Source: Bradyrhizobium mercantei
Lineage (GTDB): Bacteria > Pseudomonadota > Alphaproteobacteria > Rhizobiales > Xanthobacteraceae
Length of the DNA: 64,000 nucleotides
Assembly (NCBI RefSeq): GCF_001982635.1
Contig: NZ_MKFI01000003.1
Location: 496,001-560,000, forward strand
Direction of reading: 5' to 3'
This document shows, in pieces, positions 6,552 through 42,746 of the stretch. Under the pieces are notes generated by a model. The model saw only the letters and a program-made list of their open reading frames with translations. It had not been told where the DNA came from and did not search any database. The position numbers and the translations under genes were made by a program. How positions within the stretch are numbered: the first letter of the stretch is position 1; every line of letters begins with the position of its first letter.

Positions 6552-8009
6552 ATGAACAAGCCCGTGTCGCCTGATGAACTCATAACCGACGAGGATGGGC
6601 CGCTCTACGCGCCTCGCAAAAAGGTGTTCCCGCAGAGCGTCTCCGGCCGCTTCCGCTCGATCAAATGGCGGTTGATGATCGTCTGTCTCGGTGTCTACTA
6701 CTTTTTACCCTTCGTGCGCTGGCATCGCGGCCTCGGCGCGCCGAATCAGGCGGTTCTGATCGATTTTCCGAATAGCCGCTTCTATTTCTTCTTCATCGAA
6801 CTCTGGCCGCAGGAGGTCTATTACTTCACTGGCCTGCTGGTGCTCGCCGCACTCACCTTGTTCCTGATGAATGCGCTGGGCGGCCGCATCTGGTGCGGCT
6901 ATCTCTGCCCGCAGACGGTGTGGACCGATCTGTTCTATGCGGTCGAGCGTCTCGTCGAGGGCGACCGCCGCGCGCAGATCAAGGCCGATGCGGGGCCGAT
7001 GACCGTCAAGCGCGCCGGTCGCCGCCTGCTGAAGCATGCGATCTGGCTGGTGATCGCCTGGTGGACAGGCGGCGCCTGGGTGCTCTATTTCGCCGATGCG
7101 CCGACGCTGGTGCATGATCTGGCGACCTTTCAGGCCCCGGCGGTCGCCTATATCTGGATCGCGGCCCTGACCGCGTCGACCTATCTGCTGGCGGGCCATA
7201 TGCGCGAGCAGGTCTGCGTCTATATGTGCCCGTGGCCGCGGATTCAGGCCGCGCTGACCGACGAATGGGCACTCAACGTCACATACAAATACGATCGCGG
7301 TGAGCCGCGTTGCTCGGTCAAGAAGGCGTTCGACATTCGCTCGCTCGGCGAGAAGGCCGGCGATTGTATCGATTGCAACCAGTGCGTTGCGGTGTGCCCG
7401 ACCGGGATCGACATTCGCGATGGCGCGCAGCTTGGCTGCATCCAGTGCGGCCTATGCATCGATGCCTGTGACGCCGTCATGACCAAGGTCAGCCGCAAGA
7501 CCGGTCTGATCGGATACGATAACGATATCAACGTTCAGCGGCGCGTCGCCGGCAAGCAGGAGATATTCAAGCCCGTTCGCGCCCGTACCGTCGTCTATGC
7601 CAGCCTGATCACTATAGTCTGCGCGGTGATGCTCTACGCCCTGATGTCGCGGACGCTGCTCGACGTCAACGTGCTGCACGACCGCAATCCCATCGCGGTG
7701 CGTCTCAGCGACGGTGAGATACGCAACGGCTACACGATACGTTTCCTCAACAAGCGCGGCTTCGACCGCGTGATCGCGATCGATGTCGATGGACCGGCCG
7801 ACGCGAAGCTGCATGTCATCGGTGCGGACTCCGTGACGCCAGACCGGCCGATGATCGTCATTGGCCGCGACACCACCACCGAGCTTCGCGTGCTGGTGAC
7901 GGCGCCGTTCGATGAAAAGGCGGAAAAGTCGGTGCCGGTCACGTTCCGCGTCACTGATATCGGCCTCGGAGAGGTCGCTTCCGCGACCGACCACTTCGTG
8001 CTTCCCTAA
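6552..8009 (+). CDS. ccoG: cbb3 oxidase accessory ferredoxin/cupric reductase
   Basis: CcoG is a membrane-bound polyferredoxin that reduces copper during cbb3 oxidase assembly. The 485-residue protein has about five membrane helices in the first half. Cysteine pairs at helix ends (CGYLCPQT; CVYMCPWPR) are typical of the family. Two ferredoxin motifs follow (CIDCNQCVAVCPTG and CIQCGLCIDACDA), then a C-terminal immunoglobulin-like periplasmic domain (about residues 370-485). It is the first gene of ccoGHIS with its own FixK box. A second, diverged copy is encoded at 37839-39263. Confidence 0.96.
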   Translation: MNKPVSPDELITDEDGPLYAPRKKVFPQSVSGRFRSIKWRLMIVCLGVYYFLPFVRWHRGLGAPNQAVLIDFPNSRFYFFFIELWPQEVYYFTGLLVLAALTLFLMNALGGRIWCGYLCPQTVWTDLFYAVERLVEGDRRAQIKADAGPMTVKRAGRRLLKHAIWLVIAWWTGGAWVLYFADAPTLVHDLATFQAPAVAYIWIAALTASTYLLAGHMREQVCVYMCPWPRIQAALTDEWALNVTYKYDRGEPRCSVKKAFDIRSLGEKAGDCIDCNQCVAVCPTGIDIRDGAQLGCIQCGLCIDACDAVMTKVSRKTGLIGYDNDINVQRRVAGKQEIFKPVRARTVVYASLITIVCAVMLYALMSRTLLDVNVLHDRNPIAVRLSDGEIRNGYTIRFLNKRGFDRVIAIDVDGPADAKLHVIGADSVTPDRPMIVIGRDTTTELRVLVTAPFDEKAEKSVPVTFRVTDIGLGEVASATDHFVLP

Positions 8010-8025
8010 CCACGGAAACCTCGTC

Positions 8026-8526
8026 ATGGCAGCCTCTCGTCCAGCCGCGCGGCCCATCACCGGACGTTTCGTCCTGGTCGCGACGATCGCATTCTTCGCC
8101 GTCATCATCAGCGTGAATATGGTCATGATGCGCCTTGCCATTTCGACGCTTCCGGGCACAGAGGTCGACAGCGCCTACAGTGCGAGCCTCGCCTATCAAC
8201 GCGAGATCGATGCGGCCAGGCAGCAGAACGAGCGCGACTGGCGGGTCCAGGCCCATGTCGATCGGCGGCCTGACGGCAGCGCCGCAATTGCACTCGAGGC
8301 GCGCGACCACGCCGGCGCACCGCTTACGGGGATGAGTTTCCTTGCCCGGCTCGAACGACCGATCGATCGTCGCGCCGACCGGGCAATCGAGATTGGCGAG
8401 GCTGGAGGTGGGAGCTATAGCGGCCGCGCCGAAGGCGTCGCGGCAGGGCAGTGGGACCTCGTAATCGAGGGCGACGCCGATGGCCGGCGCATGTTCCTGT
8501 CGAAGAACCGAATCCTGCTGAACTGA
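8026..8526 (+). CDS. ccoH: cbb3 oxidase assembly protein FixH/CcoH
   Basis: The 166-residue protein has one N-terminal membrane helix (about residues 12-35, RFVLVATIAFFAVIISVNMV) followed by a periplasmic domain that begins with the family's DSAYSASLAYQREIDAARQQ stretch. FixH is needed for stable cbb3 oxidase, probably during copper delivery with CcoI. The ATG at 8026 is chosen because the upstream in-frame sequence to 7912 overlaps ccoG and is not FixH-like. It lies 16 bases after ccoG and 11 before the copper ATPase. Confidence 0.93.
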   Translation: MAASRPAARPITGRFVLVATIAFFAVIISVNMVMMRLAISTLPGTEVDSAYSASLAYQREIDAARQQNERDWRVQAHVDRRPDGSAAIALEARDHAGAPLTGMSFLARLERPIDRRADRAIEIGEAGGGSYSGRAEGVAAGQWDLVIEGDADGRRMFLSKNRILLN

Positions 8527-8537
8527 AGGTGCATCCC

Positions 8538-10724
8538 ATGCAGGCGGATATCGATTTCTCTCACTATCTCAAGAGCGCGGGCACCGGGCTCATGCATCTC
8601 GATCTCGCAGTCGAGGGCATCAACTGCGCGGGCTGCATGGCCAAGATCGAGCGCAATCTGTCAGCCATACCGGACGTCACCTCGGCCCGCGTGAACTTGA
8701 CGGACAGTCGCCTTGCGCTGGAATGGAAGGCGGGTGCTCTCGAACCGGCGCTGTTCGTAAGTCGGCTCGCGGAGCTCGGCTACAAGGCCTATCCCTTCGA
8801 GCGCGATGATGCCGAAACCCTGGAGGCTCGACGTGCGCAAGGCCTGTTGCGCAGGCTAGGCGTCGCGGCCTTTGCCGCCATGAACGTGATGATGCTGTCG
8901 GTCCCGGTGTGGTCCGGCAACGTCTCCGACATGCTGCCGGAGCAGCGAGATTTCTTCCACTGGCTGTCGGCGCTGATCGTGCTGCCGGCCGCAGCCTATT
9001 CGGCGCAGCCCTTCTTCTCGTCGGCGCTGTCAGCCCTGCGAGCGCGCGGCGTCAACATGGACGTTCCGATCAGTATCGGCATCATTTTGGCGCTGGCAAC
9101 CTCGGTGATCGAGACCGTAAACCACGCCGAACATGCCTATTTCGATGCCGCGATCATGCTGATCGCTTTCCTGCTCGCCGGTCGCTATCTCGACCAGAAC
9201 ATGCGGCGGCGCACTCGCGCCTTTGCCGGCAACCTGGCTGCCCTCAAGGCGGAGACCGCGACAAAGTTCATCAGTCCGACCGAGATCAGAACGGTCCCGG
9301 CAGCTGCGATCCGGCCCGGCGACGTCGTGCTGCTGCGGCCCGGCGAACGTTGCGCGGTCGATGGTAACGTGATCGAAGGCCGCTCGGAGATCGACCAGAG
9401 CCTGATCACGGGCGAAACCTTGCCAGCGATGGCGACGCCTGGCAGTGCTGTGTTTGCGGGGACGCTGATCCGTTCCGGCACGTTGCGTGTCCGCGCATCG
9501 GCCGGCTCGGGTGGTACATTGCTGGATGAGATATCTCAGCTGCTCGATCGCGCGCTGCAGGCGCGCTCGCGCTATCTTCGATTGGCGGAGCGCGCCTCGA
9601 GGCTCTATGCCCCGGTGGTCCACGCCACCGCATTGCTCACGATGCTGGGCTGGCTGGCCTATGGCGCGAGCTTTCATGATTCGATCGTGACAGCGATTGC
9701 AGTCCTGATCATCACCTGTCCCTGCGCACTAGGTCTTGCCATTCCGGCGGTGCAGACCGTCGCATCCGGTGCGCTATTCGGCTCGGGCGTGCTGCTCAAC
9801 GTCGGCGATGCGATCGAGCGGACTGCCGAGATCGACCGGGTGATCTTTGACAAGACAGGTACATTGACGCTGCCCGAGCTCGACGTCGCCAATCTCGCGG
9901 AAATCCCGGACGATGTCGTGCAGCTTGCAGGCCGGCTGGCGCTCTCGAGCCGTCATCCGGTCGCTGCCGCGGTCGCGCGTAAGGCGGGTGTGGCCTCACC
10001 GTTGCCCGATATCCAGGAAGAGCCGGGCCAAGGTGTCTACGGCCTTTACGAGGGACGTCCGATCTGGCTGGGCCGCCCGTCATTCTGCGGCGCTGATGAC
10101 CTGGCCAACGAGATCCTGTGCCACGATCCGGAAGCATCCGTCGTCGCATTCAGGTATGGCGAGAGCAGATATGCCTTCGCGGTTCGGCAACGGCTGCGGC
10201 CGGACGCGGCCGAGGTCGTGGCGGCGCTGACGCACATGGGCATCGCCGTCGAGATCGTGTCCGGAGATCGCGAGCCCGCGGTCCGGCTCGCGGCTGAGGT
10301 GCTCGGCGTGCATGAATGGCGTGCCGAGGTGTCCCCGGTCGACAAGATCGACCGGATCGAGGAGCTGGCGCGCCAAGGCTGCAAGGTGCTGATGGTCGGC
10401 GATGGTCTAAACGATGCGCCGGCCCTGGCCGCAGCGCACGCCTCGATGTCACCTGTTACGGCCACGGATATGAGCCAGGCGGTCGCCGATGCTGTCTTCC
10501 TTGGCGAGCGTCTTGCGCCGGTGCTGGCCGCGGTCAAGGTGTCGCGCAAGGCGTTGCGCTTGATGCGACAGAACCTCTGGCTTGCCGTCGTTTACAATGT
10601 GCTGGCGGTCCCGATCGCCGTTGCCGGCCTGGTCACACCGCTGATCGCCGCGGCGGCGATGTCGGGTTCATCGGTGATCGTGATGCTGAACGCGCTGAGA
10701 GCACGAACGAGGGAGATGGGCTGA
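8538..10724 (+). CDS. ccoI: Copper-transporting P-type ATPase for cbb3 assembly
   Basis: This P1B ATPase (FixI/CcoI, CtpA/CopA2-like) moves copper across the inner membrane for the CuB site of CcoN. The 728-residue protein has an N-terminal heavy-metal domain with GINCAGC (about residue 32), then eight membrane helices. The transport motif is C394-P-C396. The phosphorylation site is D438 in DKTGTLT, with a hinge GDGLNDAPALA near residue 625. The start at 8538 is 12 bases after ccoH; an upstream in-frame ATG at 8451 lies inside ccoH and is rejected. The stop overlaps the ccoS start by one base. Confidence 0.95.
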   Translation: MQADIDFSHYLKSAGTGLMHLDLAVEGINCAGCMAKIERNLSAIPDVTSARVNLTDSRLALEWKAGALEPALFVSRLAELGYKAYPFERDDAETLEARRAQGLLRRLGVAAFAAMNVMMLSVPVWSGNVSDMLPEQRDFFHWLSALIVLPAAAYSAQPFFSSALSALRARGVNMDVPISIGIILALATSVIETVNHAEHAYFDAAIMLIAFLLAGRYLDQNMRRRTRAFAGNLAALKAETATKFISPTEIRTVPAAAIRPGDVVLLRPGERCAVDGNVIEGRSEIDQSLITGETLPAMATPGSAVFAGTLIRSGTLRVRASAGSGGTLLDEISQLLDRALQARSRYLRLAERASRLYAPVVHATALLTMLGWLAYGASFHDSIVTAIAVLIITCPCALGLAIPAVQTVASGALFGSGVLLNVGDAIERTAEIDRVIFDKTGTLTLPELDVANLAEIPDDVVQLAGRLALSSRHPVAAAVARKAGVASPLPDIQEEPGQGVYGLYEGRPIWLGRPSFCGADDLANEILCHDPEASVVAFRYGESRYAFAVRQRLRPDAAEVVAALTHMGIAVEIVSGDREPAVRLAAEVLGVHEWRAEVSPVDKIDRIEELARQGCKVLMVGDGLNDAPALAAAHASMSPVTATDMSQAVADAVFLGERLAPVLAAVKVSRKALRLMRQNLWLAVVYNVLAVPIAVAGLVTPLIAAAAMSGSSVIVMLNALRARTREMG

Positions 10725-30854: not shown

Positions 30855-31982
30855 CTACCGGGTGACGGCCACCGGATCGGCGGCGCCGACCTTGTCGGGG
30901 GGGACGGGGCTGGGAGGGGTGACCTGCTTCATCAGGTCATCGTTCCACTTTCCTTCGACCTTGAAGTGTGCGGCGGCACCCAGTTCGACCGCCTCGATCA
31001 GGTTATGGTTCACGTAGGCGTAGATTCCGGGCTCGCGGAAAGTATAGAGTGCGGCACCGGCCGAACCGCCCCGGACGAACCAGGTCTCAAGGTCCTTCTC
31101 CGGCGGATTGTTGAATTTGCCGGTCTCCCAGACGTAGTCGCCGTGGCCACCGATCAGGTGCGGACGGGTGTCGCGATTGGCCTGCGAGTGCACGATCAGC
31201 ACGGTCTCGCCGACCTTCGCGGTCATGGCGTTCTTGCCGGTAAGCGAGCCGACGCTGCCATTGAAAACGACATGCGTCGGAATCAGCTTGCGCATGACCT
31301 CGGTCGTGTCGGCATAGGATTCACCGAGCGTCTCATAGGTCTTGTATTTACCGTTCTCGTCCTTCGGCACGTAGAGATCGTTCTCGCCGATGTAGTAGAT
31401 CTTGTCGTAGTGTAGCGACCTGCCCGCGCCGTCCTTCAGACCGTCGCGCGGCAGCACCATGACGGTGCCGTGCATGCCCGACACGACGTGCCAGGGGATC
31501 ATGCCTTCGGGCGCGCAGTGGTAGACGAACACGCCGGGACGCGTGGCCTTCCAGCGCAGCTTCACTTGCTCGCCCGGATTAACCTTCGTCAACGCGCCGC
31601 CGCCGAGGCCTCCCGTCGCCGAATGCAGGTCGATATTGTGCGGCATGGAGTTGGTCTCGGGATTGACCAGTGTGAGCTCCATATAGTCGCCTTCATGCAG
31701 CACCATCATCGGGCCCGGCATCGAGCCGTCGTAGGTCATCGCCCAGAACTTGGTTCCTGCAGAATCGATCACGACCTCCTTCTCGCGGATCGTCAGCTTG
31801 AACTCGACGATCTTGGGGCCTGACTTGGTCGCCTGGTCGTGAGGATGCACGGCGGGCGGCGCCACCAGCGTCACCTTCTCGCGCGGAAGATTCAGCTCGT
31901 CCGCAGTCTCCGCGATGGCCGGTGCCGTCATCATCAACGCCGCGATCGCGGCGCCCATCAAAGCAGTCCTTCGCGTGAGCAT
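30855..31982 (-). CDS. nirK: Copper-containing nitrite reductase
   Basis: This periplasmic enzyme reduces nitrite to nitric oxide. The 375-residue protein has a leader with an RR pair ([18 protein letters not shown]) and two cupredoxin domains. Type 1 copper ligands: H115, C156, H165, M170. Type 2 copper ligands: H120, H155 and H326 (YVNHNLIEA). Catalytic Asp118 lies in HNIDLH and His275 in [10 protein letters not shown]. All expected residues are present, so the enzyme should be active. A TTGT-N6-ACAA box lies 70 bp upstream. Pseudoazurin (33284) is a likely electron donor. No NO reductase gene is visible in the window. Confidence 0.98.
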
Positions 31983-32065: not shown

Positions 32066-32373
32066 CGTTCGCGATGGATCTGCGAAACAGTTCTTCGGCG
32101 GAGGGTTGCGTTAGGAGCAAAAAGAGCTTGAGCGCGACCGGTTACGGTGGCTGCATGGCAAAGGATGCAATCCCAAGTACTGGGATGCCCGTCGACGACG
32201 TGATGCACCGTTGGCGCTCACGGTCCGCGTTTTCCTGGATTCTAGGATGCGATGCGTCGGCTGTCCGATCGTATCATTTCAATCGATCGCCGAGGCGTGC
32301 GCCGAGCATTCCGTTGATGCCCGAAGTCTTTCTGCCAAAGATACTGGCTGCCAAGGATACTGGACGCGGCTGC
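32066..32373. other. Gap between the nirK promoter and the nnrR-type gene
   Basis: About 300 bases with no supported gene. Open frames here have poor codon use and no family. Since nnrR ends at 32374 on the minus strand, this stretch holds its 3' untranslated region and the upstream part of the nirK promoter. Confidence 0.4.
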
Positions 32374-33096
32374 CTAAGGTCCGCGCCGGCGTAACTGGAT
32401 GGCTTCGTCGCCTTCGGCGAGGCCGTGCAGCCGATGCGCGTTGCGGAGCACGATGCGCTGCCTGCCGCCCTCGACCAGCCCCTCGTTTTCCCAGGCGCTG
32501 AGGATCCGACTGACGGTGTGCAACGTCGTTCCGGTCATCTCGGCGATGTCTTGTCGGCTGATCGGAAAATCGATCTCGACGCCGGTATCGACCTTCTTTC
32601 CGGCCTGCTTGGCCAGGCGCAGCAGCGCATGCGCCACCCGCTGCTCCACCTGCTCATTCGAGATCTCGATCACACGTGCCTGGGTGTCCTGAAGGCGGCT
32701 GCCCACCGTCTGTAGTGCGCTCGCGGCAAGCGTCGGATACTTGACGATCAGCCGCTGCCACGACGATGACGGCCACGCCAACGCGATGCTGTCGACGGCG
32801 GCGACAGATGTCGCCGGATAATGCGTCATGTTCATGGCCTGCGCGACGCCGAAGAGTTCGCCGGCGGAGACGTAGCGTACCACGGTCTGCTGGCCTTGCG
32901 GTGTCGTCTTCTCGACGCGGAGGTGGCCGTGCAGCAGTAGAAAGAAGCGGTCGGCGTGAGTGCCTTGGTCGAAGACCGCGCTGCCTTTGATGTAACGGAC
33001 CGAACGTGCCTCGCGCAGCAACTCGTCCTGCTCGAGGGGAGACAACCCCGCGAACATGGGCAGATTAGCGACCAGCGACCGGTCGACTGCGGCCAT
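32374..33096 (-). CDS. nnrR: NnrR/DNR-type Crp/Fnr regulator
   Basis: The 240-residue protein has a Crp-type barrel (FDQGTHADRFFLLLHGHLRV; RYVSAGELFGVAQAMN) and a C-terminal HTH (SRQDIAEMTGTTLHTVSRIL). It has no cysteine, which excludes an FNR iron-sulfur cluster and fits the NO-responsive NnrR/DNR branch. The recognition helix has His-x2-Ser-Arg instead of FNR's Glu-x2-Ser-Arg, so it should read a different half-site. It lies between nirK and pseudoazurin, the usual location of a nitrite-reductase regulator. A TTGC-N6-GCAA box is 95 bp upstream and shared with pseudoazurin. Confidence 0.85.
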   Translation of the reverse strand: MAAVDRSLVANLPMFAGLSPLEQDELLREARSVRYIKGSAVFDQGTHADRFFLLLHGHLRVEKTTPQGQQTVVRYVSAGELFGVAQAMNMTHYPATSVAAVDSIALAWPSSSWQRLIVKYPTLAASALQTVGSRLQDTQARVIEISNEQVEQRVAHALLRLAKQAGKKVDTGVEIDFPISRQDIAEMTGTTLHTVSRILSAWENEGLVEGGRQRIVLRNAHRLHGLAEGDEAIQLRRRGP

Positions 33097-33190
33097 AAGA
33101 AACCCCTCAGATAAGGCCGGGAGACTACCCGCCTGGGAGCAAGCCTCAACGTGCTGGCCTGTTTCTTACCCCGGCAAACCGTCCAGAAAC

Positions 33191-33204
33191 TTGCGCTGGC
33201 GCAA
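33191..33204. promoter_or_regulatory. FixK/NnrR-type box (strict), divergent
   Basis: TTGCGCTGGCGCAA is a TTGC-N6-GCAA palindrome between the nnrR start (33096, minus) and the pseudoazurin start (33284, plus), about 80-95 bp from each. Confidence 0.7.
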
Positions 33205-33283
33205 TCTCTGGGACCTGGAAGCGGTTTATGTGCTGCTGCGGGGCCCGACCATCCCGGGCTGGATGTTTCATAGGAACGCGAAG

Positions 33284-33742
33284 ATGAGAATGATCGCGAA
33301 GATGGCTGTCGCGGCGGCCCTCGTTCTGGCCGGGGGCACCGCGCGCGGAGCCGAGGTCGAAGTCAAACTGCTTAACAAGGGAAGCGACGGCGCCATGATG
33401 GTGTTCGAACCGGCGCTGGTGAAGGTTGCACTGGGCGATACCGTGAAGTTCGTCGCGACTGACAAGGGCCACAATGCCGAGACCATCAAGGGCATGCTGC
33501 CCGAGGGCGCGGCTGCGTTCCAGGGCAAGAACGGCGAGGACGTCGCCGTGAAGTTTGATCAGGAAGGCGTCTACGGGGTGAAGTGCCTGCCCCACTACGG
33601 AATGGGCATGGTGGCGATGATCGTCGTCGGGTCGCCCACCAATCTCGATCAAGCCAGAGCCGTGCCCCAGGTCGGCAAGGCGAAGCAGGTGTTCGCGACG
33701 CTGTTCGACAAGCTCGAAGCGAGTAAGACCGCGGCCAAGTGA
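33284..33742 (+). CDS. Pseudoazurin, periplasmic electron donor
   Basis: The 152-residue protein has a signal peptide (MRMIAKMAVAAALVLAGGTARGA) and a type 1 copper domain. Ligands are H63 in DKGHNAETIKG, C101, H104 and M109 in CLPHYGMGM, with the C-x2-H-x4-M spacing of pseudoazurin. It carries electrons from the bc1 complex to NirK. The ATG at 33284 is used because the longer upstream frame covers the promoter and is not protein-like. The last 30 residues (DQARAVPQVGKAKQVFATLF) form the C-terminal helices typical of the family. Confidence 0.95.
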   Translation: MRMIAKMAVAAALVLAGGTARGAEVEVKLLNKGSDGAMMVFEPALVKVALGDTVKFVATDKGHNAETIKGMLPEGAAAFQGKNGEDVAVKFDQEGVYGVKCLPHYGMGMVAMIVVGSPTNLDQARAVPQVGKAKQVFATLFDKLEASKTAAK

Positions 33743-34378: not shown

Positions 34379-34392
34379 TTGTCGTGGATCAA
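34379..34392. promoter_or_regulatory. FNR/NnrR-type box (relaxed), divergent
   Basis: TTGTCGTGGATCAA (TTG-N8-CAA, with one extra A on the right) lies between the 60-aa gene (34328, minus) and NnrS (34488, plus). Its distance of 95 bp to the 34488 start also argues against an NnrS start at 34401. Confidence 0.5.
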
Positions 34393-34487
34393 ACAGATCG
34401 GTGAATGAGGAGCTAGTTTGCGCTCCGACAAAGAAAGGCCGACCGCACGCGTCTAATCTGGCGTCTATTCGATCGGGAACGGCGACC

Positions 34488-35666
34488 ATGGCGACGATGC
34501 AGAAGTTGAGGAACTACAGAGGCCCGGCGCTCCTGTCGCATGGCTTCCGACCGTTCTTCCTGTTCGCCGCCATCTATGCCGGGGCGGCGATTCCGTTGTG
34601 GCTTGCGATCTTTGCCGGCCATGTTTGGCTGCCGACGGCGTTCGCGCCACGGGACTGGCACGTCCATGAGATGCTGTTCGGCTATGTGGGCGCCGTCGTT
34701 GCGGGCTTTCTCTTGACCGCGATCCCCAATTGGACGGGACGGCTGCCGATCCAGGGAGTGCCGCTCGCGCTGCTGTTCGGATCCTGGGTCGCCGGGCGGG
34801 CCGCAACGTCGTTCTCCGATATGATCGGCTGGCGAGCCGCGCTCGCGATCGACGCCGCTTTTCTGGTTCTTCTCGCGGCGGCGGCCGCGCGAGAAATCGT
34901 CGTCGGACGAAAGTGGAACAACCTGAAAGTCGTCGCGATCGTCTCCTTGCTTGCCGGCGCAAACATCGCCTTCCATATCGAAGCTCATATCACCGGGCTT
35001 GCGGAGTATTCGACGCGCGCCGGTGTGGCCTTGGTCGTTACGCTCGTTTGCATCATTGGCGGCCGGATCGTGCCGAGCTTCACGCGCAACTGGCTCGCGC
35101 GCCGCCCCCCGGGACGACTACCAGTTCCTTTCAATCGGTTCGACGCGGTCGCGATGGTCGCCGGCGTCTGCGCCATGGCCGCGTGGGTGATGTTCCCGAC
35201 GGGGCGGTCAACGGCCGTCGCTCTTGCGGCTGCCGGTCTATTGCATTTCGTTCGTCTGCTGCGTTGGGCCGGAGACCGGACCTTCTCCGATCGCCTCGTC
35301 TTGGTCCTGCACGTCGCCTACGCCTTCGTGCCAGTTGGGTTCTTCCTCTGCGGGCTTTCCGCGGTCGATTTCGTCTCCCCCGGTGCGGGCCTGCATGCCT
35401 GGACCGGAGGCGCGATTGGCTCGATGACGATCGCGGTCATGACGCGTGCATCGCTCGGACATACCGGACAGGCGCTCAAGGCTTCAGGGCCCGTTCAAGC
35501 CGTCTACGCCGCCATCGTGATCGCCGCCGTCGCACGTGTCTGCGCCGCGATCGAGCCGAGCCACTCGGTTGCCCTTCTGATGGTGTCCGGCATCGCATGG
35601 ACGTTTGCCTTTCTCGGTTTCGTGGCCGCCTACGCGCCGCTTCTCTGCCGCGCACGGAAGTTCTGA
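34488..35666 (+). CDS. nnrS: NnrS-family membrane protein
   Basis: NnrS is a heme- and copper-containing inner-membrane protein that protects cells from NO-dependent iron-thiol damage during denitrification. The 392-residue protein has about 12 membrane segments and the family motifs SHGFRPFFLFAAIYAG near the start, WHVHEMLFGYVGAVVAGFLL, TAIPNWTGR, and GGRIVPSFTRNWL in the middle. The ATG at 34488 (or 34497) is preferred to the in-frame ATG at 34401 because the N-terminal SHGFRPFF sequence follows closely and a promoter box lies between them. It is the first gene of a plus-strand unit whose next gene starts 2 bases on. Confidence 0.92.
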   Translation: MATMQKLRNYRGPALLSHGFRPFFLFAAIYAGAAIPLWLAIFAGHVWLPTAFAPRDWHVHEMLFGYVGAVVAGFLLTAIPNWTGRLPIQGVPLALLFGSWVAGRAATSFSDMIGWRAALAIDAAFLVLLAAAAAREIVVGRKWNNLKVVAIVSLLAGANIAFHIEAHITGLAEYSTRAGVALVVTLVCIIGGRIVPSFTRNWLARRPPGRLPVPFNRFDAVAMVAGVCAMAAWVMFPTGRSTAVALAAAGLLHFVRLLRWAGDRTFSDRLVLVLHVAYAFVPVGFFLCGLSAVDFVSPGAGLHAWTGGAIGSMTIAVMTRASLGHTGQALKASGPVQAVYAAIVIAAVARVCAAIEPSHSVALLMVSGIAWTFAFLGFVAAYAPLLCRARKF

Positions 35667-35668
35667 TC

Positions 35669-37006
35669 ATGATCGGCACGAACCTATCCCGATGGACGAT
35701 GACTTATTTCGCGGCGGCGCTCGCGTGGCTGTTCGTCGCGCTTGGTCTGCTGGTCGCCGGAGTCGGCTATCCCGCCGGCGACATCGCGTCGCCCGACACT
35801 CTCGTCCTCGTTCACGTGATCTGCATCGGATGGTTGAGCCTTGCGATGTGCGGAGCGTTGTTCCAATTCGTGCCTGTTCTGGTCGCCAAGCCGCTGTTTT
35901 CCGACAAATGCGCTTTGCCGGCGCTTGCCTTGCTGACGGTGGGGCTTCTGTCGCTGCTCGGAGGGTTTCTTTGCTTGGGCGGCCGTCTCCCGCCGACGCT
36001 CTGGTTGCTGCCACTCGGTGCCATTCTGCTCGTCGTAGGCTTCGGTTTGGTTGTCCTCGATCTCGGTTTGACGGCTTGGCTGCGTCCAATCGGGCCGGCT
36101 CGCTTCGTCCTTGTGGGGCTGGCTTCACTGTGTGCCACCATGGTACTCGGTGCCATTTTCGCGTTCGCGCTCGCCGGATGGGCGGGGTCGGTGGGAGGAG
36201 TGGTTCTCGCAAGCGGCATCCCGCTGCACGCCATCGCCGGCCTCGGCGGCTGGCTTACCTTGACCGCCATGGGCGTCAGCTACCGTCTTCTGGCAATGTT
36301 CATGCTGGCGCCCGACGTCGACGACCGGCAAAGCGGCGTCACGCTCGCTGTGGGGGCGGTGGCCGTTGCCTTCGCCGTGGCGAGCGGAGCGCTTGCGATT
36401 GGGCTCGCCGCCGGTCTGCAGATCGTGCTGTCGATCGCTGGGGTCCTTGGCATCGCATCGGCTGCCCTTTACGGGCGAGACGTCGTCGGCATCTTCAGCA
36501 ACCGCAAGCGTCGCCATCTCGAGCTCAACATGCGGATGGCGACGCTGTCGTTCGCGAGCCTTGCAGGCGTGGCACTGCTCGGAATCGCGCTCGTCGCGTT
36601 CGGCGCCTTCCTCGCGAACGTGGGCGCGTTCGCTTTCCTCGCGATTTTCGGCTGGCTGTCGGGTCTGGTCCTCGCGAAACTCTACAAGATCGTCGCATTC
36701 CTGACCTGGCTGGAGACCTATGGCCCCGTGATGGGGCGCGCTCCGACCCCGCGCGTCCAGGATCTCGTTGCCGAGGACCGGGCGACGAAATGGTTCGTTA
36801 TCTACTATGCGGCCGTTTGGGCCGGTACAGCGGCTCTGCTGGGCGGCGAACCGGCCGCGTTGCGCGTGGCCGCAGCGGCAATGACCGTCTGCGTGGTCGG
36901 CATCGTCCACGAAATCGTTCGGATCCGTCGGCTTGCCGACGTCGCTAGACCGCTGCGGCTACCCGTCGGCGCGGTCGCGCCGCACCTGCTGTTCGCAAGA
37001 AAATGA
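35669..37006 (+). CDS. Multi-pass membrane protein resembling a heme-copper oxidase subunit
   Basis: The 445-residue protein has about 12 hydrophobic segments. Two sequences resemble the histidine helices of the NorB/CcoN group: DTLVLVHVICIGWLSLAMCG (H at residue 49) followed by FQFVPVL, and GIPLHAIAGLGGWLTLTAMG followed by YRLLAMFML. The pattern H-x-x-x-x-G-W-L-x-L plus Y/F-x-x-x-P occurs in uncharacterised heme-copper-like proteins of denitrifiers. The full set of six metal ligands is not evident, so it is probably not a working oxidase or NO reductase. It starts 2 bases after nnrS and 3 bases before the DUF2249 gene. The ATG at 35669 is used; the frame is open upstream to 34730 but that part lies inside nnrS. 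Confidence 0.75.
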   Translation: MIGTNLSRWTMTYFAAALAWLFVALGLLVAGVGYPAGDIASPDTLVLVHVICIGWLSLAMCGALFQFVPVLVAKPLFSDKCALPALALLTVGLLSLLGGFLCLGGRLPPTLWLLPLGAILLVVGFGLVVLDLGLTAWLRPIGPARFVLVGLASLCATMVLGAIFAFALAGWAGSVGGVVLASGIPLHAIAGLGGWLTLTAMGVSYRLLAMFMLAPDVDDRQSGVTLAVGAVAVAFAVASGALAIGLAAGLQIVLSIAGVLGIASAALYGRDVVGIFSNRKRRHLELNMRMATLSFASLAGVALLGIALVAFGAFLANVGAFAFLAIFGWLSGLVLAKLYKIVAFLTWLETYGPVMGRAPTPRVQDLVAEDRATKWFVIYYAAVWAGTAALLGGEPAALRVAAAAMTVCVVGIVHEIVRIRRLADVARPLRLPVGAVAPHLLFARK

Positions 37007-37009
37007 GAG

Positions 37010-37522
37010 ATGAATATCATGACCCAGTACATCGACGTCGACGTCCGTCCGATCCTGCGTGCTGGAGGCGAGCCGTTCTCGGTGATCATGTCGGCGCTGG
37101 AGAACCTCGCGCCGGGGCAGGGATTGCGACTCTACGCGACGTTCAGGCCGATTCCTCTGTTCGCGGTGATGCAGAAGAAAGGCTTCGCGCACACCGAACA
37201 GTCTCTCGAAGGCGGCGAGTGGGAAGTCCTCTTCACTCCCGCCGAGACGCAGTCCGAGGAGCACGCGGTGGCGGCATCGAGCTTCGACAACTGGCCAGAC
37301 CCCGCAGTCACGCTGGACAACCGGGATCTCGACCCTCCGGAGCCGATGGTCCGGATCCTCGCGGAAGCGGACAAACTTGGGCCCGGTGAGACGTTGTCGG
37401 CACTGCTGCGCCGGGAGCCGGTGTTCCTGTTTCCGCAGCTCGAGAAGCGTGGTTTCCGCTGGCTCGGCGGCTTCACTTCGGACGGCACCGCTTACGAGCT
37501 GACTGTCCGGGCCCCATCATGA
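37010..37522 (+). CDS. Tandem DUF2249 protein (170 aa)
   Basis: Two related halves are visible. The first, DVDVRPILRAGGEPFSVIMS and LYATFRPIPLFAVMQKKGFA with EVLFTP at its end, is a standard DUF2249 domain. The second, TLDNRDLDPPEPMVRILAEA with LLRREPVFLFPQLEKRGFRW and YELTVRAPS, repeats the same plan. DUF2249 is a small SirA/TusA-like fold common in gene sets for NO response (with hemerythrins and NnrS). Here each half keeps the D-x-R start (DVDVRP, LDNRDL). The role is unknown. It starts 3 bases after the membrane gene (alternative ATG at 37019) and overlaps the next gene by 4. Confidence 0.88.
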   Translation: MNIMTQYIDVDVRPILRAGGEPFSVIMSALENLAPGQGLRLYATFRPIPLFAVMQKKGFAHTEQSLEGGEWEVLFTPAETQSEEHAVAASSFDNWPDPAVTLDNRDLDPPEPMVRILAEADKLGPGETLSALLRREPVFLFPQLEKRGFRWLGGFTSDGTAYELTVRAPS

Positions 37523-37833
37523 CCAGCGAACTCGTCGACCGCGTGCGCGATGCGCTGCGGGCCGTGATCGATCCGGAACTCGGCGAGAACATCGTCGATC
37601 TCGGGTTCGTCTACGACATCACCGCCGAAGCAGGGGCGGTCCGGATCACAATGACGGCGACGACCCCAGGATGCCCGGCGACCGGTTTCCTGAGGGAAGG
37701 GGCACAGGCTGCCGCGTCCACCGTTTCAGGGGTCGTCTCTGCCGACGTGACGATGACTTTCGAGCCGGCATGGGACCCGTCCTACATCGAACCCGCCGTC
37801 CGGGCCTCTCTCGGCTTCGCCGCAGTGAACTGA
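37519..37833 (+). CDS. DUF59/MIP18 metal-sulfur cluster protein (SufT-like)
   Basis: The 104-residue protein matches the DUF59 (FeS assembly P, SufT/PaaD-like) pattern: VRDALRAVIDPELGENIVDL, then DLGFVYDI, with TMTATTPGCPATGFLREGAQ containing the conserved Cys in TPGCP. This family helps to mature Fe-S proteins. Here it starts 4 bases inside the DUF2249 gene and ends 5 bases before the second CcoG-type gene, whose product has two [4Fe-4S] clusters, so it may mature that ferredoxin or repair Fe-S damage caused by NO. Confidence 0.92.
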   Translation: MTSELVDRVRDALRAVIDPELGENIVDLGFVYDITAEAGAVRITMTATTPGCPATGFLREGAQAAASTVSGVVSADVTMTFEPAWDPSYIEPAVRASLGFAAVN

Positions 37834-37838
37834 CCGCC

Positions 37839-39263
37839 ATGGCCCTTACCATCGAGATCGATCACGCCAAGACCCGCGCCAGGGCCGCAGCCGCCGCCGG
37901 CCAGCCGGTCGTGCCCCAGTCCGTCAAAGGCCCGATCCGCAGGATCAAATGGGCTGTCCTGCTCCTGACGTTGTCGATCTACTACGTCACGCCGTTCATC
38001 CGTTGGGACCGGGGGCTTAACGCACCGGACCAGGCTGTCCTGCTCGATTTCGCCAACGGTCGCCTTTACGCCTTCTTCGTCGAGATTTGGCCGCAGGATC
38101 TCTATCTCGTCACCGGTCTGTTGGTGCTCGCGGCCACCATCCTGATCCTGACCAATGCGCTTGCGGGCCGCCTGTGGTGCGGATTCGCCTGTCCGCAGAC
38201 GGTCTGGACCGACCTGTTCCTGCTGGTCGAGCGGCTGATCGAAGGTGATCGCCGCCTGCGGCTGAAGAACAGAGATGCGTCCCTGACTCCGAAGCGGGCG
38301 GCGCAGGTCGTCGCGAAGCACGCGGCTTGGCTGCTGATCTCCTTCGCGACCGGCGGTACGCTGATCTTCTACTTCACCGATGCGCCGGGCCTGCTACGGG
38401 GGTTCGCTTCCGGAGAGGTGTCCACGAACGCGTTGACCTGGATCGTCGTCTTCGCCGGCACGACCTACGGCCTGGCCGGCTTCGCGCGCGACCAAGTCTG
38501 CACCTTCATGTGTCCGTGGCCCCGGCTGCAGGGTGCGATCTGGGATCCGGAGGCGTACACCGTCAATTATCGCGACTACCGCGGTGAACTGCGGATGTCC
38601 GCGAAGAAGGCCGCGGCAGTCCGGCTCGAGGGCAAGCCCGCCGGCGACTGCGTCGATTGCGGCCAGTGCGTCGCCGTTTGTCCGATCGGTATCGACATCC
38701 GCGAGGGACCGAACTTCGCATGTATCAACTGCGGGCTCTGCGTCGATGCCTGCGACGGGGTCATGTCCAAACTCGGTCGTGCCCGCGGTCTAATTGACTA
38801 CGAAAGCTGGACCAACATCGAGCGCGGCCGTCGGAAGGAGGCGCCCGTCAACCGCCTGGTGCGGCCGAAGACGATCGGCCTGACGGCCGCAAGCCTCGCG
38901 CTTGCCGGCATCATCATGGTCGCGTTCGCGACCAAGACCACGGCGATCCTTTCGGTCCAGCACGACCGGGATCCCGTGGCGGTCAAGCTCTCGGACGGCT
39001 CGCTGCGTAACGCCTATACGGTGAAGCTTCTGAACAAGTCGTCGGCTCCCCACACCTATGCGCTGTCCGTCAGCGGCGTCGATGCGAGGCTTGCCATTGT
39101 GGGCGTCGAACACGGCTCATCGGTCGTGATTGGGCCCGAGACTTCCGAAGCGTTGCGGGTCACCTTGACGGGGGCGGCGGACAGTCAGGGCGACGTCGTG
39201 TTCACGGCGCGGGACGAGACCAACCTCGTCCTTTCAGCAAAGGACAGATTCGTCGACCGATGA
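37839..39263 (+). CDS. Second CcoG/RdxA-like membrane ferredoxin
   Basis: The 474-residue protein is a paralogue of CcoG (6552): the same membrane part (CGFACPQTVWTDLFLLVERL; CTFMCPWPRLQ), the same two ferredoxin motifs (CVDCGQCVAVCPIG and CINCGLCVDACDG) and the same C-terminal immunoglobulin-like domain (RNAYTVKLLNKSSAPHTYAL). It is not next to cbb3 genes but ends the NnrS / DUF2249 / DUF59 unit. It may supply electrons to that unit or to a copper or Fe-S repair process, or assist NirK copper. The ATG at 37839 is used; the longer frame upstream overlaps the DUF59 gene. Confidence 0.93.
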   Translation: MALTIEIDHAKTRARAAAAAGQPVVPQSVKGPIRRIKWAVLLLTLSIYYVTPFIRWDRGLNAPDQAVLLDFANGRLYAFFVEIWPQDLYLVTGLLVLAATILILTNALAGRLWCGFACPQTVWTDLFLLVERLIEGDRRLRLKNRDASLTPKRAAQVVAKHAAWLLISFATGGTLIFYFTDAPGLLRGFASGEVSTNALTWIVVFAGTTYGLAGFARDQVCTFMCPWPRLQGAIWDPEAYTVNYRDYRGELRMSAKKAAAVRLEGKPAGDCVDCGQCVAVCPIGIDIREGPNFACINCGLCVDACDGVMSKLGRARGLIDYESWTNIERGRRKEAPVNRLVRPKTIGLTAASLALAGIIMVAFATKTTAILSVQHDRDPVAVKLSDGSLRNAYTVKLLNKSSAPHTYALSVSGVDARLAIVGVEHGSSVVIGPETSEALRVTLTGAADSQGDVVFTARDETNLVLSAKDRFVDR

Positions 39264-39286: not shown

Positions 39287-39397
39287 TTCGACGCGCTCGA
39301 CTTCGTCAAGGAGACCGTAAAGTCCCGGATTAGGGCTTTACCGGATTTGCAAGTTCGCCCGAAACGGACCTAAGTCGGTTACCTTTGGAGCATGCGC

Positions 39398-41230
39398 ATG
39401 ACAACCGTCGAACACTTCGAGCCCTACGCCGCCGGTCCGTCCCGGTCGAGCGAGTTTGCGAAGACACGCGATGCGACGCCGACGAGGCGCATGGGCCTGC
39501 GTCCTCTGATTTCGTTGTATCCCTATATCGCCCGCTATCGCGGGCGCGCGATGCTCGCATGCGTGTCGCTCACGGTTGCGGCGGTCACCACGCTCGCGAT
39601 TCCTGTTGCGGCACGACGGATGGTCGATTTCGGCTTCGATCCGGATGGCCTTTCGGCGATCGACGGCTACTTCGCGGCCATGATCGCGGTTGTGGCCGTG
39701 CTGGCCTGCGCCAGCGCCTGCCGATATTATTTCGTGGCGACGTTGGGTGAGCGCGTGGTGGCTGACGTCCGGCGGGATGTCTTCGGTCATTTGCTCCGAC
39801 TGTCACCTTCTTTCTTCGATCGATCGAGTAGCGGCGATCTCACGTCGCGGCTGACGGCAGACACCACGCAGATCAAGGCGGCGGTCGGCGCATCTGCTTC
39901 CGTGGCTTTGCGCAACCTGATCATGCTGCTCGGGGCGATCGTCATGATGACGGTCACAAGCCCGAAGCTTTCCGCAATGGTCCTGCTCGTCATTCCTGCC
40001 GTCGTGATCCCCCTGATCGCATGCGGTCGGTGGGTCCGGCGGCTTTCCCGCAACGCTCAGGATACGCTCGCCGATGCAACCGCCTACGCTTCGGAGCTGA
40101 TCGGCGCGATCAGAACGGTACAGGCCTACAACGGCACGACGATCGCCACCGATCGCTTCGGTCGCGAGGTGGACGAAGCCTATGAGGCCTCTCGCGTTTC
40201 GACCAGGGCGAGGGCCGTTCTGACCCAGATCGTCATCTTCATCGTATTCAGCAGTGTTGTGGTCATTCTCTGGGCCGGCTCTCGCGACGTGGCGATGGGA
40301 GCCATGAGCGCCGGACGTCTCGGTCAATTCATACTCTACGCGGTCTTGGCTGCGACGAGCCTCGGCCAGCTCAGCGAGGTCTGGGGCGAAGTGTCCGCGG
40401 CCTCGGGCGCAGCGGAGCGCCTGTTCGAGATACTGCGCCTCAAGCCCGAGATCGCAGCCCCGAGCCGGCCGTTGAACCTGCCGCTGGCCGGTCAGGGAAG
40501 CCTGGCGTTCGAAGCCGTCAGCTTCGCCTATCCGGGAAGGCCGGACGTTCGGGTGCTCGACGACGTCGCGTTCTCCGTGCGCTCCGGTGAGAAAGTCGCC
40601 ATCGTCGGGTCGTCTGGAGCCGGCAAGAGTACGTTGTTTCACCTTCTCTTGCGGTTCTATGATCCGAGTTCGGGACTGGTCTCGCTCGACGGAGTTGCCG
40701 TCCACGAGGCCGATCCCGAAGAAATCCGCTCGCGCATCGCCCTGGTTCCGCAGGATCCGGTCATCTTTGCCGCCTCCGCCCGAGACAACATCCGCTTCGG
40801 GCGCCCCTCCGCGACGGATGCCGAGGTAGAGCGCGCCGCCGACCTGGCCTCAGCTTCCGGGTTTCTGGCCGTGCTGCCGGATGGACTCGATACGCGACTG
40901 GGCGAACGTGGCGTCATGCTGTCCGGTGGGCAGCGCCAGCGTATCGCCATCGCGCGCGCGATACTGCGCGATGCTCCCCTTCTGCTGCTCGACGAGGCCA
41001 CCTCGGCGCTCGATTCCGAGAGCGAGGCCGTGGTCCAGGCCGCGCTGCAGGGGCTCATGAAGGGACGAACCACTCTCGTCATCGCGCACCGTCTTGCTAC
41101 CGTCCTGTCCTGCGACCGCATTCTGGTGATGGATCGCGGCAAGATCGTCGAACAGGGCACCCATGAGGAGCTGTCGTCGGCCGGCGGTCTTTACGCCCGC
41201 CTTGCGCGGTTGCAGTTCGGAACGAACTGA
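39398..41230 (+). CDS. MsbA-type ABC exporter (permease fused to ATPase)
   Basis: The 610-residue protein has an N-terminal membrane domain with six helices (LISLYPYIARYRGRAMLACV; FDRSSSGDLTSRLTADTTQI) and a C-terminal ATPase with Walker A GSSGAGKST, signature LSGGQRQ and Walker B LLLLDEATS. This is the half-size exporter plan of MsbA/multidrug/lipid ABC proteins and works as a homodimer. GGAG lies 6 bases before the ATG at 39398; an ATG at 39392 is also in frame. It has about 130 bases of upstream sequence and could have its own promoter. The substrate is unknown; its place among NO and copper genes hints at envelope lipid, heme or metal-complex export. Confidence 0.9.
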   Translation: MTTVEHFEPYAAGPSRSSEFAKTRDATPTRRMGLRPLISLYPYIARYRGRAMLACVSLTVAAVTTLAIPVAARRMVDFGFDPDGLSAIDGYFAAMIAVVAVLACASACRYYFVATLGERVVADVRRDVFGHLLRLSPSFFDRSSSGDLTSRLTADTTQIKAAVGASASVALRNLIMLLGAIVMMTVTSPKLSAMVLLVIPAVVIPLIACGRWVRRLSRNAQDTLADATAYASELIGAIRTVQAYNGTTIATDRFGREVDEAYEASRVSTRARAVLTQIVIFIVFSSVVVILWAGSRDVAMGAMSAGRLGQFILYAVLAATSLGQLSEVWGEVSAASGAAERLFEILRLKPEIAAPSRPLNLPLAGQGSLAFEAVSFAYPGRPDVRVLDDVAFSVRSGEKVAIVGSSGAGKSTLFHLLLRFYDPSSGLVSLDGVAVHEADPEEIRSRIALVPQDPVIFAASARDNIRFGRPSATDAEVERAADLASASGFLAVLPDGLDTRLGERGVMLSGGQRQRIAIARAILRDAPLLLLDEATSALDSESEAVVQAALQGLMKGRTTLVIAHRLATVLSCDRILVMDRGKIVEQGTHEELSSAGGLYARLARLQFGTN

Positions 41231-41897: not shown

Positions 41898-42746
41898 ATG
41901 CTGAAGGTCGCAAGCATCATCTTGGTCGCTGTAGCGCTGCTCGCATTCGTAAGCTCCGCTCCATCGCTTGCCGAGCATGAACGCGTCGCCGTCAGCCAGG
42001 CCTGGACCCGTGCCACGCCTAAGGGTGCCAAGGTCGCGGGCGGCTATCTCGCCGTCGAGAACCGCGGTGCTCGCGCTGATCGCCTGCTGTCGGCAGTAAG
42101 CCCCGCCGCCCGCAAGGTCGAAATTCACAGCATGACCATGCAAGACGGCATCATGACGATGCGTCCCCTCGACGACGGGCTGGCAATCCCTCCGGATGCG
42201 ACGGTCACTCTCGCGCCAGGCGGCGACCACATCATGTTCATCGGATTGACCACGCCGTTCGAGGAGGGACAACGTATTCCGGTGTCGCTGAATTTCGAAC
42301 GCGCAGGCAGGGTCGAGGTCACGTTCGAGGTCGTCAGCGTTGGCGCAAAGGGGCCGCGGCTGCAGATCGTGTCGGGCGATCCGGCACCGCTGACGGTCTT
42401 GCCGGCAAATGCGGTCCCGCGCGGCGAGCCCTTCTTCACCCATATCTGCGGAACGCGGGTGATGGCTGACGTCACGGTCACGCCTCGCCCCGGCGGGCCT
42501 GTCGAGATCGACGTGAAGCTGGAGGACGGCGATGAGAAGCCGCTCGCGGTCGATGGGCTCTCTGTGGCCTTGTCGAATCCGGACAAGCACATCGCTCCGG
42601 TAGAGGCCACGGCCGAACGAATCGCGGCGGACAGCTGGCGCGTCCGCATGACGGCCGCAGTAAATGGCAAGTGGTCGCGGTCTCTCGGAATCGACACGAC
42701 GAAGGAGGATCACATCGACATTGCGGCTCCAATCATCATCGAGTGA
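41898..42746 (+). CDS. Periplasmic copper chaperone: PCuAC domain with extra C-terminal domain
   Basis: The 282-residue protein has a signal peptide (about 1-26, ending SAPSLAEHE), then a PCu(A)C domain (about 28-150; VEIHSMTMQDGIMTMRPLDD and LAPGGDHIMFIGLTTPFEEG). These keep the H-x-M-x-M, M and H-x-M copper ligand pattern. A second domain follows (about 165-282; FTHICGTRVMADVTVTPRPG, VRMTAAVNGKWSRSLGIDTT), of beta type, resembling YtkA/FixH-like or CopC-type periplasmic domains. The fusion is not the usual single-domain PCuAC length (about 160). It probably delivers copper to NirK, pseudoazurin or CcoN. Confidence 0.88.
   Translation: MLKVASIILVAVALLAFVSSAPSLAEHERVAVSQAWTRATPKGAKVAGGYLAVENRGARADRLLSAVSPAARKVEIHSMTMQDGIMTMRPLDDGLAIPPDATVTLAPGGDHIMFIGLTTPFEEGQRIPVSLNFERAGRVEVTFEVVSVGAKGPRLQIVSGDPAPLTVLPANAVPRGEPFFTHICGTRVMADVTVTPRPGGPVEIDVKLEDGDEKPLAVDGLSVALSNPDKHIAPVEATAERIAADSWRVRMTAAVNGKWSRSLGIDTTKEDHIDIAAPIIIE

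Follow-up and report, generated by a model that had tools for sequence, protein, structure and literature searches.

Denitrifying rhizobia produce nitric oxide (NO), a poison for iron-sulfur (Fe-S) enzymes and nitrogenase. The locus discussed here is a five-gene operon at positions 34488 to 39263 of a 64,000-nucleotide stretch of the Bradyrhizobium mercantei genome (contig NZ_MKFI01000003.1, positions 496,001 to 560,000; the window, whose numbering is used throughout), which encodes the NO-response protein NnrS, a membrane protein termed P2, a tandem DUF2249 protein, a DUF59 protein and a CcoG-type protein. The unit is real, conserved and linked to NO, and it is partly foreseen in print under the heading of DUF2249, the family which we take to equal COG4309. 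Genes for COG4309 were tied to nor genes already in 2005 (Rodionov et al., PMC1274295), with P2, DUF59 and a module as a whole not named in the accessible part of that paper. Four DUF2249 genes of Haloferax mediterranei are induced under denitrification (PMC11218638), and the same article names Pei et al. 2014 (10.1002/pro.2503; also cited in PMC4602095) as having associated this family with the heme-copper oxidase superfamily; P2 may be one of the oxidase-superfamily families of that study. In Thermus thermophilus, DrpA and DrpB, a single and a tandem DUF2249 protein, belong to a nitrate-respiration cluster that a denitrification regulator controls, with involvement of DUF1858 (PMC6282519). 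While DUF1858 is fused in DrpB, it is a separate and seemingly frameshifted gene in the window, where the tandem DUF2249 protein has no DUF1858 match and is not a fusion of the DrpB type; neither P2 nor DUF59 is named in the part of the Thermus paper at hand. NnrS, finally, is said to guard the iron pool against dinitrosyl iron complexes (Stern et al., 2013, cited in PMC11526790).

An earlier sequence-only reading of the window put the operon forward as a candidate for an undescribed system. In the literature searched, with most subscription papers outside its coverage, no description was found of a P2-DUF2249-DUF59 module or of its hemerythrin variant presented below, no paper on NnrS together with DUF2249 and none on five Sinorhizobium meliloti locus tags presumed to lie in this region (SMa1253, 1255, 1257, 1259, 1261). 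To that extent the proposal stands, but the links of DUF2249 to nor genes (PMC1274295) and to the oxidase superfamily (PMC11218638) are in print.

All five genes are on the plus strand, with three intergenic gaps (2, 3 and 5 bases) and a single overlap of 4 bases, and the coordinates thus agree with the tight packing noted earlier. The first gene, nnrS (34488..35666, 392 amino acids (aa)), scores 371.3 bits against the PF05940 cut-off of 28 (expectation value (E) 8.5e-111). The gene for P2 (35669..37006, 445 aa) starts 2 bases downstream, the tandem DUF2249 gene (37010..37522, 170 aa) follows after 3 bases, the DUF59 gene (37519..37833, 104 aa) overlaps the latter by 4 bases and the CcoG/FixG-type gene (37839..39263, 474 aa) begins after a gap of 5. 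The last product, likely a cupric reductase, resembles CcoG/RdxA/FixG in exceeding the TIGR02745 cut-off (457 versus 316.7 bits), in its dicluster and FixG_C domains and in being 47% identical to the FixG protein encoded by the window's fix cluster; unlike these proteins it is encoded outside a ccoGHIS cluster and inside an NO-type operon, and the cupric reductase role is predicted. It is the second CcoG within the window, as had been stated, but the third of the genome, and its proposed function as electron supplier to the membrane is not supported, CcoG being described as a cupric (Cu(II)) reductase needed for cbb3 oxidase (PMC7558416).

The core of the operon becomes apparent from a set of 54 loci with P2 (with a frameshift in P2 of L046 and a partial P2 in L055), of which that of Bradyrhizobium sp. 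C9 is closest, its P2 being 96% identical to that of the window, which is part of an 8.84 Mb genome. DUF2249 is adjacent to P2 in 52/54 loci and DUF59 near in 50/54, L019 being scored without DUF59 only through the calling of open reading frames (ORFs), as tblastn finds DUF59 there. CcoG, on the other hand, lies within 2.6 kb of the unit in 17/54 loci, all Bradyrhizobium by their titles, NnrS directly upstream in 13/54, two of them remnants, and both together occur in 8/54. As DUF2249 and DUF59 are near-constant and NnrS and CcoG are found in a minority of loci, P2-DUF2249-DUF59 is the conserved core and the five-gene order one local version with NnrS and CcoG as optional members. The trio thus recurs elsewhere, while the five genes, whose order the sequence-only reading had wanted to be sought in other nirK genomes, do not form a conserved set, and CcoG was rejected as an obligate part of the unit. 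The NnrS remnants, 44 residues just upstream of P2 in L020 and L022 (Afipia), look as if NnrS had been lost from the operon. A single DUF2249 gene adjoins P2 in addition to the tandem one in 8/54 loci, mostly outside Bradyrhizobium. On plasmids, pSymA of S. meliloti carries DUF2249-P2-DUF2249-DUF59 between hemN and nnrS-nirK, an Aminobacter plasmid P2-DUF2249 and DUF59 near nos genes and a Mesorhizobium plasmid P2-DUF2249 near nos genes (L061, L062). As a separate observation, the trio is located near UbiX/UbiD-, SCP2- and U32-peptidase-like genes in 13/54 loci of one Bradyrhizobium group (L025-L030, L032-L036, L038, L045), neighbours which presumably resemble genes of oxygen-independent ubiquinone synthesis.

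P2 itself has no match to any Pfam or NCBIfam family at E 0.1, PF00115 included, and no sequence match in the PDB. A model built from an alignment of 41 near sequences (window P2 included) reached a mean predicted local distance difference test score (pLDDT) of 91.6 and a predicted template modelling score (pTM) of 0.92, and its helices were counted as twelve transmembrane (TM) segments. All 20 Foldseek matches of the model at E <= 0.001 were oxidase or NO reductase entries, with the cbb3 oxidase 3mk7 as the best (E 4.9e-7); VIA-align gave Z 33.5 to the same structure (root-mean-square deviation 3.2, 391 residues aligned) and Z 33.0 to the NO reductase 4xyd. By its predicted model, P2 belongs to the heme-copper oxidase superfamily at the level of the 12-helix catalytic subunit fold, which it shares over the whole length with CcoN of cbb3 oxidase and NorB. 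The guess from raw sequence that P2 is a relative of heme-copper oxidases lacking a full ligand set proved right, since the fold searches hit oxidases and NO reductases over the full length and the alignments agree. Unlike CcoN and NorB, to which identity is approximately 13%, P2 is encoded beside DUF2249 and DUF59 proteins and not beside subunits II and III.

Heme-copper oxidases possess six ligand histidines, one in TM2, one in TM6, two in TM7, where the copper ligands are held, and two in TM10. Of the five histidines of the window P2 (49, 187, 283, 414, 439), H49 in TM2 and H187 in TM6 are the sole ones conserved throughout, in 57/57 sequences (41/41 near including the window, 16/16 distant), and both are on ligand helices; P2 thus does not display the six-histidine set of the oxidase and NO reductase enzymes. 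There is no histidine in TM7, and F321 and F323 occupy the two CcoN TM10 ligand positions, matched by eye with the offset counted from a shared GW motif; position 323 is F or Y in 41/41 near sequences. Conservation is highest in TM6 (0.90), TM2 (0.86) and TM10 (0.82) and lowest in TM7 (0.54). If an oxidase-like topology is assumed, the cytoplasmic loops exceed the periplasmic loops in conservation (0.75 versus 0.55; permutation p 1e-4 without the C-terminal tail) and harbour most of the positive residues. The conserved TM2, TM6 and TM10 together with the conserved and positively charged cytoplasmic loops suggest that P2 may bind a cofactor and may interact with a soluble protein on its cytoplasmic side.

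The candidate partner, the third protein of the operon, matches DUF2249 (PF10006) in two stretches (E 9.5e-34, 115.5 bits versus a cut-off of 29.5), its second half also TusA (PF01206, E 2e-8), and these two are the only DUF2249 domains found in the own genome. It is modelled as two alpha/beta domains whose mutual placement is not fixed by the model (pTM 0.43). The second half has the TusA fold in the model, with VIA Z 10.4 to TusA (3lvj_C, 74 aligned residues) and Z 12.2 to the YeeE-YeeD complex 8k1r, a precedent for a TusA-like domain whose structure was determined in complex with a membrane protein. Among the matches listed for the first half there are IF3-type structures (Z ~7) and no TusA, and its assignment therefore rests on the DUF2249 profile. 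A catalytic cysteine is missing: no column has Cys in half or more of 80 DUF2249 rows (some rows have one or two, the window protein none), and TusA-type sulfur transfer was consequently rejected. Of the Fe-S or sulfur chemistry previously suggested for DUF2249 and DUF59, only the share of the latter is retained, as the DUF59/FeS_assembly_P protein (E 1.2e-21, 77.2 bits versus 23.5) has its cysteine, that of GCP, which is present in 72/72 rows, while no fewer than 95% of the rows have the DPE motif (some genomes contribute two rows). In the tandem DUF2249 protein RPIP and REP replace the HDP motif of the single-DUF2249 rows, so that the histidine is not conserved there; the single DUF2249 proteins beside P2 keep it in 12/12 rows and HDP in 11. 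Half of these 12, from S. meliloti and relatives, carry a cysteine-rich tail (L063 14674-14955; L060, L048, L051, L078, L079).

Beyond the 54 loci, a survey of the phylum (387 genomes, 38 with a P2 match) yielded 24 distant matches. Nineteen regions were inspected, of three near homologues and 16 of the 24 distant ones; of the other eight only L099 was looked at, a short stretch in which the sought neighbours were not seen. A hemerythrin-type ORF is present within 500 bases of P2 in 11/16 distant loci and DUF2249 beside P2 in 9/16 (L103, L107-L111, L113, L115, L116), with consecutive genes for hemerythrin, DUF2249 and a P2-like protein in L115, and with a NirK-like ORF (E 5e-40) near the adjoining DUF2249 and P2 genes of L116. 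Pfam confirmed hemerythrin in 7/7 neighbour ORFs taken from L102-L104, L107, L110, L111 and L113, five of which also match DUF2249 at E <= 0.01, three of them above the curated cut-off; in L106 the ORF scanned had no match, but a hemerythrin model derived from these seven ORFs recognizes a different one at this locus. In L100, a near homologue outside the class, the trio is flanked by NorB-like and NirK-like ORFs. DUF2249 is hence a frequent companion of the oxidase-like P2 family, while the iron protein varies between DUF59 and hemerythrin. Given the hemerythrin ORFs beside 11/16 distant homologues, DUF2249 appears to serve as adaptor for an iron protein. In the vicinity of the P2/hemerythrin pair of L106, a protoglobin-GGDEF protein is encoded (7603-9003), likely a gas-sensing neighbour.

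At the level of the order (377 genomes; statistics uncorrected for kinship), P2 was found in 24 genomes, NirK in 88 and cNorB in 70. NirK is present in 20/24 P2 genomes versus 68/353 others (p 1.8e-10), with P2 and nirK starting at most 8 kb apart in 12/24, the own genome included, and NorB in 11/24 versus 59/353 (p 0.0014). NosZ was detected in 8/24 P2 genomes, one a weak partial match. NnrS is encoded in 24/24 P2 genomes (23/23 others and the own), in 13/23 within 7 kb of P2. Within NirK genomes the association of NnrS with P2 is weak (23/23 with P2 versus 47/57 without), as the p value is 0.026 one-sided and 0.055 two-sided; the 57 stem from 68 NirK genomes without P2, omitting eight weak NirK matches and G167, G173 and G227. 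The link of the operon to NirK and NO drawn by the sequence-only reading is thus supported by the association with NirK and NnrS.

Two TTGN8CAA boxes of the FNR/FixK2/NnrR type precede the operon, 39 bases apart: TTGTCGTGGATCAA (34379..34392) at -109 and TTGCGCTCCGACAA (34418..34431) at -70 from the NnrS start codon. The second resembles the B. diazoefficiens norC box TTGCGCCCTGACAA as listed in the available part of PMC6710368. At least one such box occurs at most 300 bases upstream of the unit in 37/42 loci versus 10.4% of random stretches, and it is present irrespective of whether NnrS (10/10), a single DUF2249 (5/9) or P2 (22/23) comes first, start positions being approximate for several single-DUF2249 genes. 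The 42 loci comprise 39 of the 54 P2 loci and three plasmid loci; L002, near-identical to the window, was omitted and 14 others were outside. The pair with 39-base spacing is conserved in several Bradyrhizobium relatives and recurs in front of both NnrS-first (e.g. L003, L006, L007) and P2-first units (L004, L008, L010, L049). The view of the five genes as one transcription unit is supported; it has a conserved FNR/NnrR-type promoter, likely controlled by NnrR or FixK2, and is hence likely induced by NO. The window as a whole is rich in FNR/FixK-type boxes, with 27 TTGN8CAA matches versus a shuffle mean of 8.9 (largest 17).

With respect to the surroundings, nirK for the copper nitrite reductase (30855..31982, minus strand; TIGR02376 E 8.4e-159) and a gene for an NnrR-like Crp/Fnr regulator (32374..33096, minus strand), 53% identical to a Crp/Fnr protein of the S. 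meliloti nirK region, are separated from the operon by an ORF with pseudoazurin in its C-terminal part (33056..33742, plus strand; TIGR02375 E 1.1e-45). Between nirK and the Crp gene, at ~32155-32335, lies the seemingly frameshifted DUF1858 gene; the matched stretch is open in L002, L005, L007, L008, L010, L013, L016 and L049 and has an internal stop in L006. Downstream, an MsbA-type ABC transporter gene (39392-41230) separates CcoG from the PCuAC copper chaperone (41898..42746, plus strand), and in six relatives (L003, L004, L006, L007, L012, L014) PCuAC follows CcoG at a distance of at most ~200 bases. Neither a cNorB match at E 1e-60 nor a NosZ match was obtained in the own genome, and of the five loci of the COX1 family in it, a NorB profile picks up the CcoN gene and a CcoN fragment alone, both weakly, leaving no clear NorB. 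A further observation concerns G000 C72, where at ~99.4-103.4 kb (L088, L092) one ORF fuses the C-terminal half of CcoN to the N-terminal part of another protein, which we take to resemble a type VI sheath protein; a presumably FixO-like ORF and a FixG gene follow, and the stretch looks like a second fix cluster broken by a chimeric junction, either real or an assembly error.

Taken together, the reading we prefer, tentatively and at somewhat less than even confidence, is that the operon serves NirK denitrification as an NO-inducible accessory unit which protects or repairs iron centres. P2 would bind one b-type heme or another redox metal via H49 and H187 and would accept electrons from the quinol pool or react with NO; an electron or signal would then leave via the conserved cytoplasmic face to a docked DUF2249 protein, which in turn would serve an iron protein, DUF59 here and a hemerythrin di-iron protein in distant lineages. 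In this way Fe-S or iron centres hit by NO would be protected or rebuilt, while NnrS would limit iron-nitrosyl formation and CcoG and PCuAC would maintain the copper flow to NirK. NnrS agrees with protection of iron centres because of its proposed role in shielding the iron pool.

Several observations weigh against such a unit. P2 is patchy (15/60 relatives), four of the 24 P2 genomes have no NirK match, and only 22/54 loci have a nir, nor or nos gene inside the fetched flanks. Within NirK genomes there is no clear link of P2 to NorB (11/20 with P2 versus 28/68 without, p 0.31). Profile-profile scores of P2 against NorB, NnrS and CcoN were weak and not significant (E 0.07-0.31, shallow alignments), and the structural match took their place; a local match of P2 TM2 to CcoN TM10 (E 0.07) was not used as evidence. 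Position 317, located where TM10 begins and outside the ligand positions, is a histidine in 26/41 near sequences, though not in that of the window, and the distant group has three further conserved histidines of its own (alignment positions 86, 141, 349). The DUF59 protein scores below the NCBIfam SUF/SufT equivalog cut-offs (80.3 versus 143.4 and 62.6 versus 202.6 bits). Among the 16 distant loci, hemerythrin is ~2.5 kb away from P2 in L112, and L105, L114 and L118, the last of which ends soon after P2, show neither DUF2249 nor hemerythrin. No experiment on P2 or the module was found in the literature searched.

Furthermore, the data separate repair, sensing and maturation poorly. A membrane-located sensor of NO, nitrate or redox state, formed by P2 and the DUF2249 proteins and adjusting the expression of denitrification genes in the manner of DrpA/DrpB, is possible, if on the unlikely side. 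DrpB combines DUF1858 with a tandem DUF2249, DrpA is a single DUF2249 protein and their loss renders nar/dnr expression nitrate-independent (PMC6282519); the joint presence of a single and a tandem DUF2249 in eight of the 54 loci and a DUF1858 gene near nirK in several Bradyrhizobium loci are in line with this role. However, DUF59 is an assembly-type protein and not a known signal module, the Thermus paper, as far as accessible, contains neither DUF59 nor a named P2 equivalent, and the drpAB double mutant had little nitrate reductase activity at normal protein levels, which fits maturation as well (PMC6282519).

Maturation proper, in which the unit would provide NirK, Nor, Nos or cbb3 oxidase with their copper, heme or Fe-S cofactors instead of repairing NO damage, we consider unlikely. 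It could draw on the described requirement of CcoG for cbb3 oxidase (PMC7558416). PCuAC behind CcoG in the six relatives and nos genes inside the flanks of 9/54 loci, as well as near P2 in L061 and L062, would also fit; CcoG, though, is near the trio only in the minority of loci mentioned above, all by their titles Bradyrhizobium, and hemerythrin, the partner of many distant homologues, is an iron protein. To our knowledge, the core P2-DUF2249-DUF59 contains no copper motif. Highly improbable is that P2 itself consumes NO as a diverged NO reductase-like enzyme replacing NorB where it is missing, as its NorB fold and an own genome with NirK and no clear NorB may evoke, since without histidines in TM7 and at the two TM10 ligand positions it has no known heme b3/FeB site and P2 is not enriched in NirK genomes lacking NO reductase, the association test within NirK genomes (p 0.31) being unsupportive of a stand-in.

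Returning to the protection or repair of iron centres, a bolder and distinctly doubtful extension is that P2 founds a branch of the oxidase fold which gave up O2 and NO reduction to become a two-histidine redox or NO-reactive conduit, delivering electrons or NO across the membrane to a cytosolic DUF2249 adaptor with a lineage-swapped client, the Fe-S assembly protein DUF59 in rhizobia and di-iron hemerythrin in other Proteobacteria. If true, this would constitute a machinery, powered by the membrane, for the repair or detoxification of iron centres, most useful where NirK makes NO without an NO reductase, as in the own genome. The exchange of DUF59 for hemerythrin beside the same type of membrane protein, with DUF2249 present in either setting, offers for this long-unexplained family a testable role as adaptor of an oxidase-like membrane protein to an iron protein. 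The conserved module accompanies NirK and NnrS and provides a direct handle on how rhizobia survive NO, also in strains with NirK in which no NO reductase was found.

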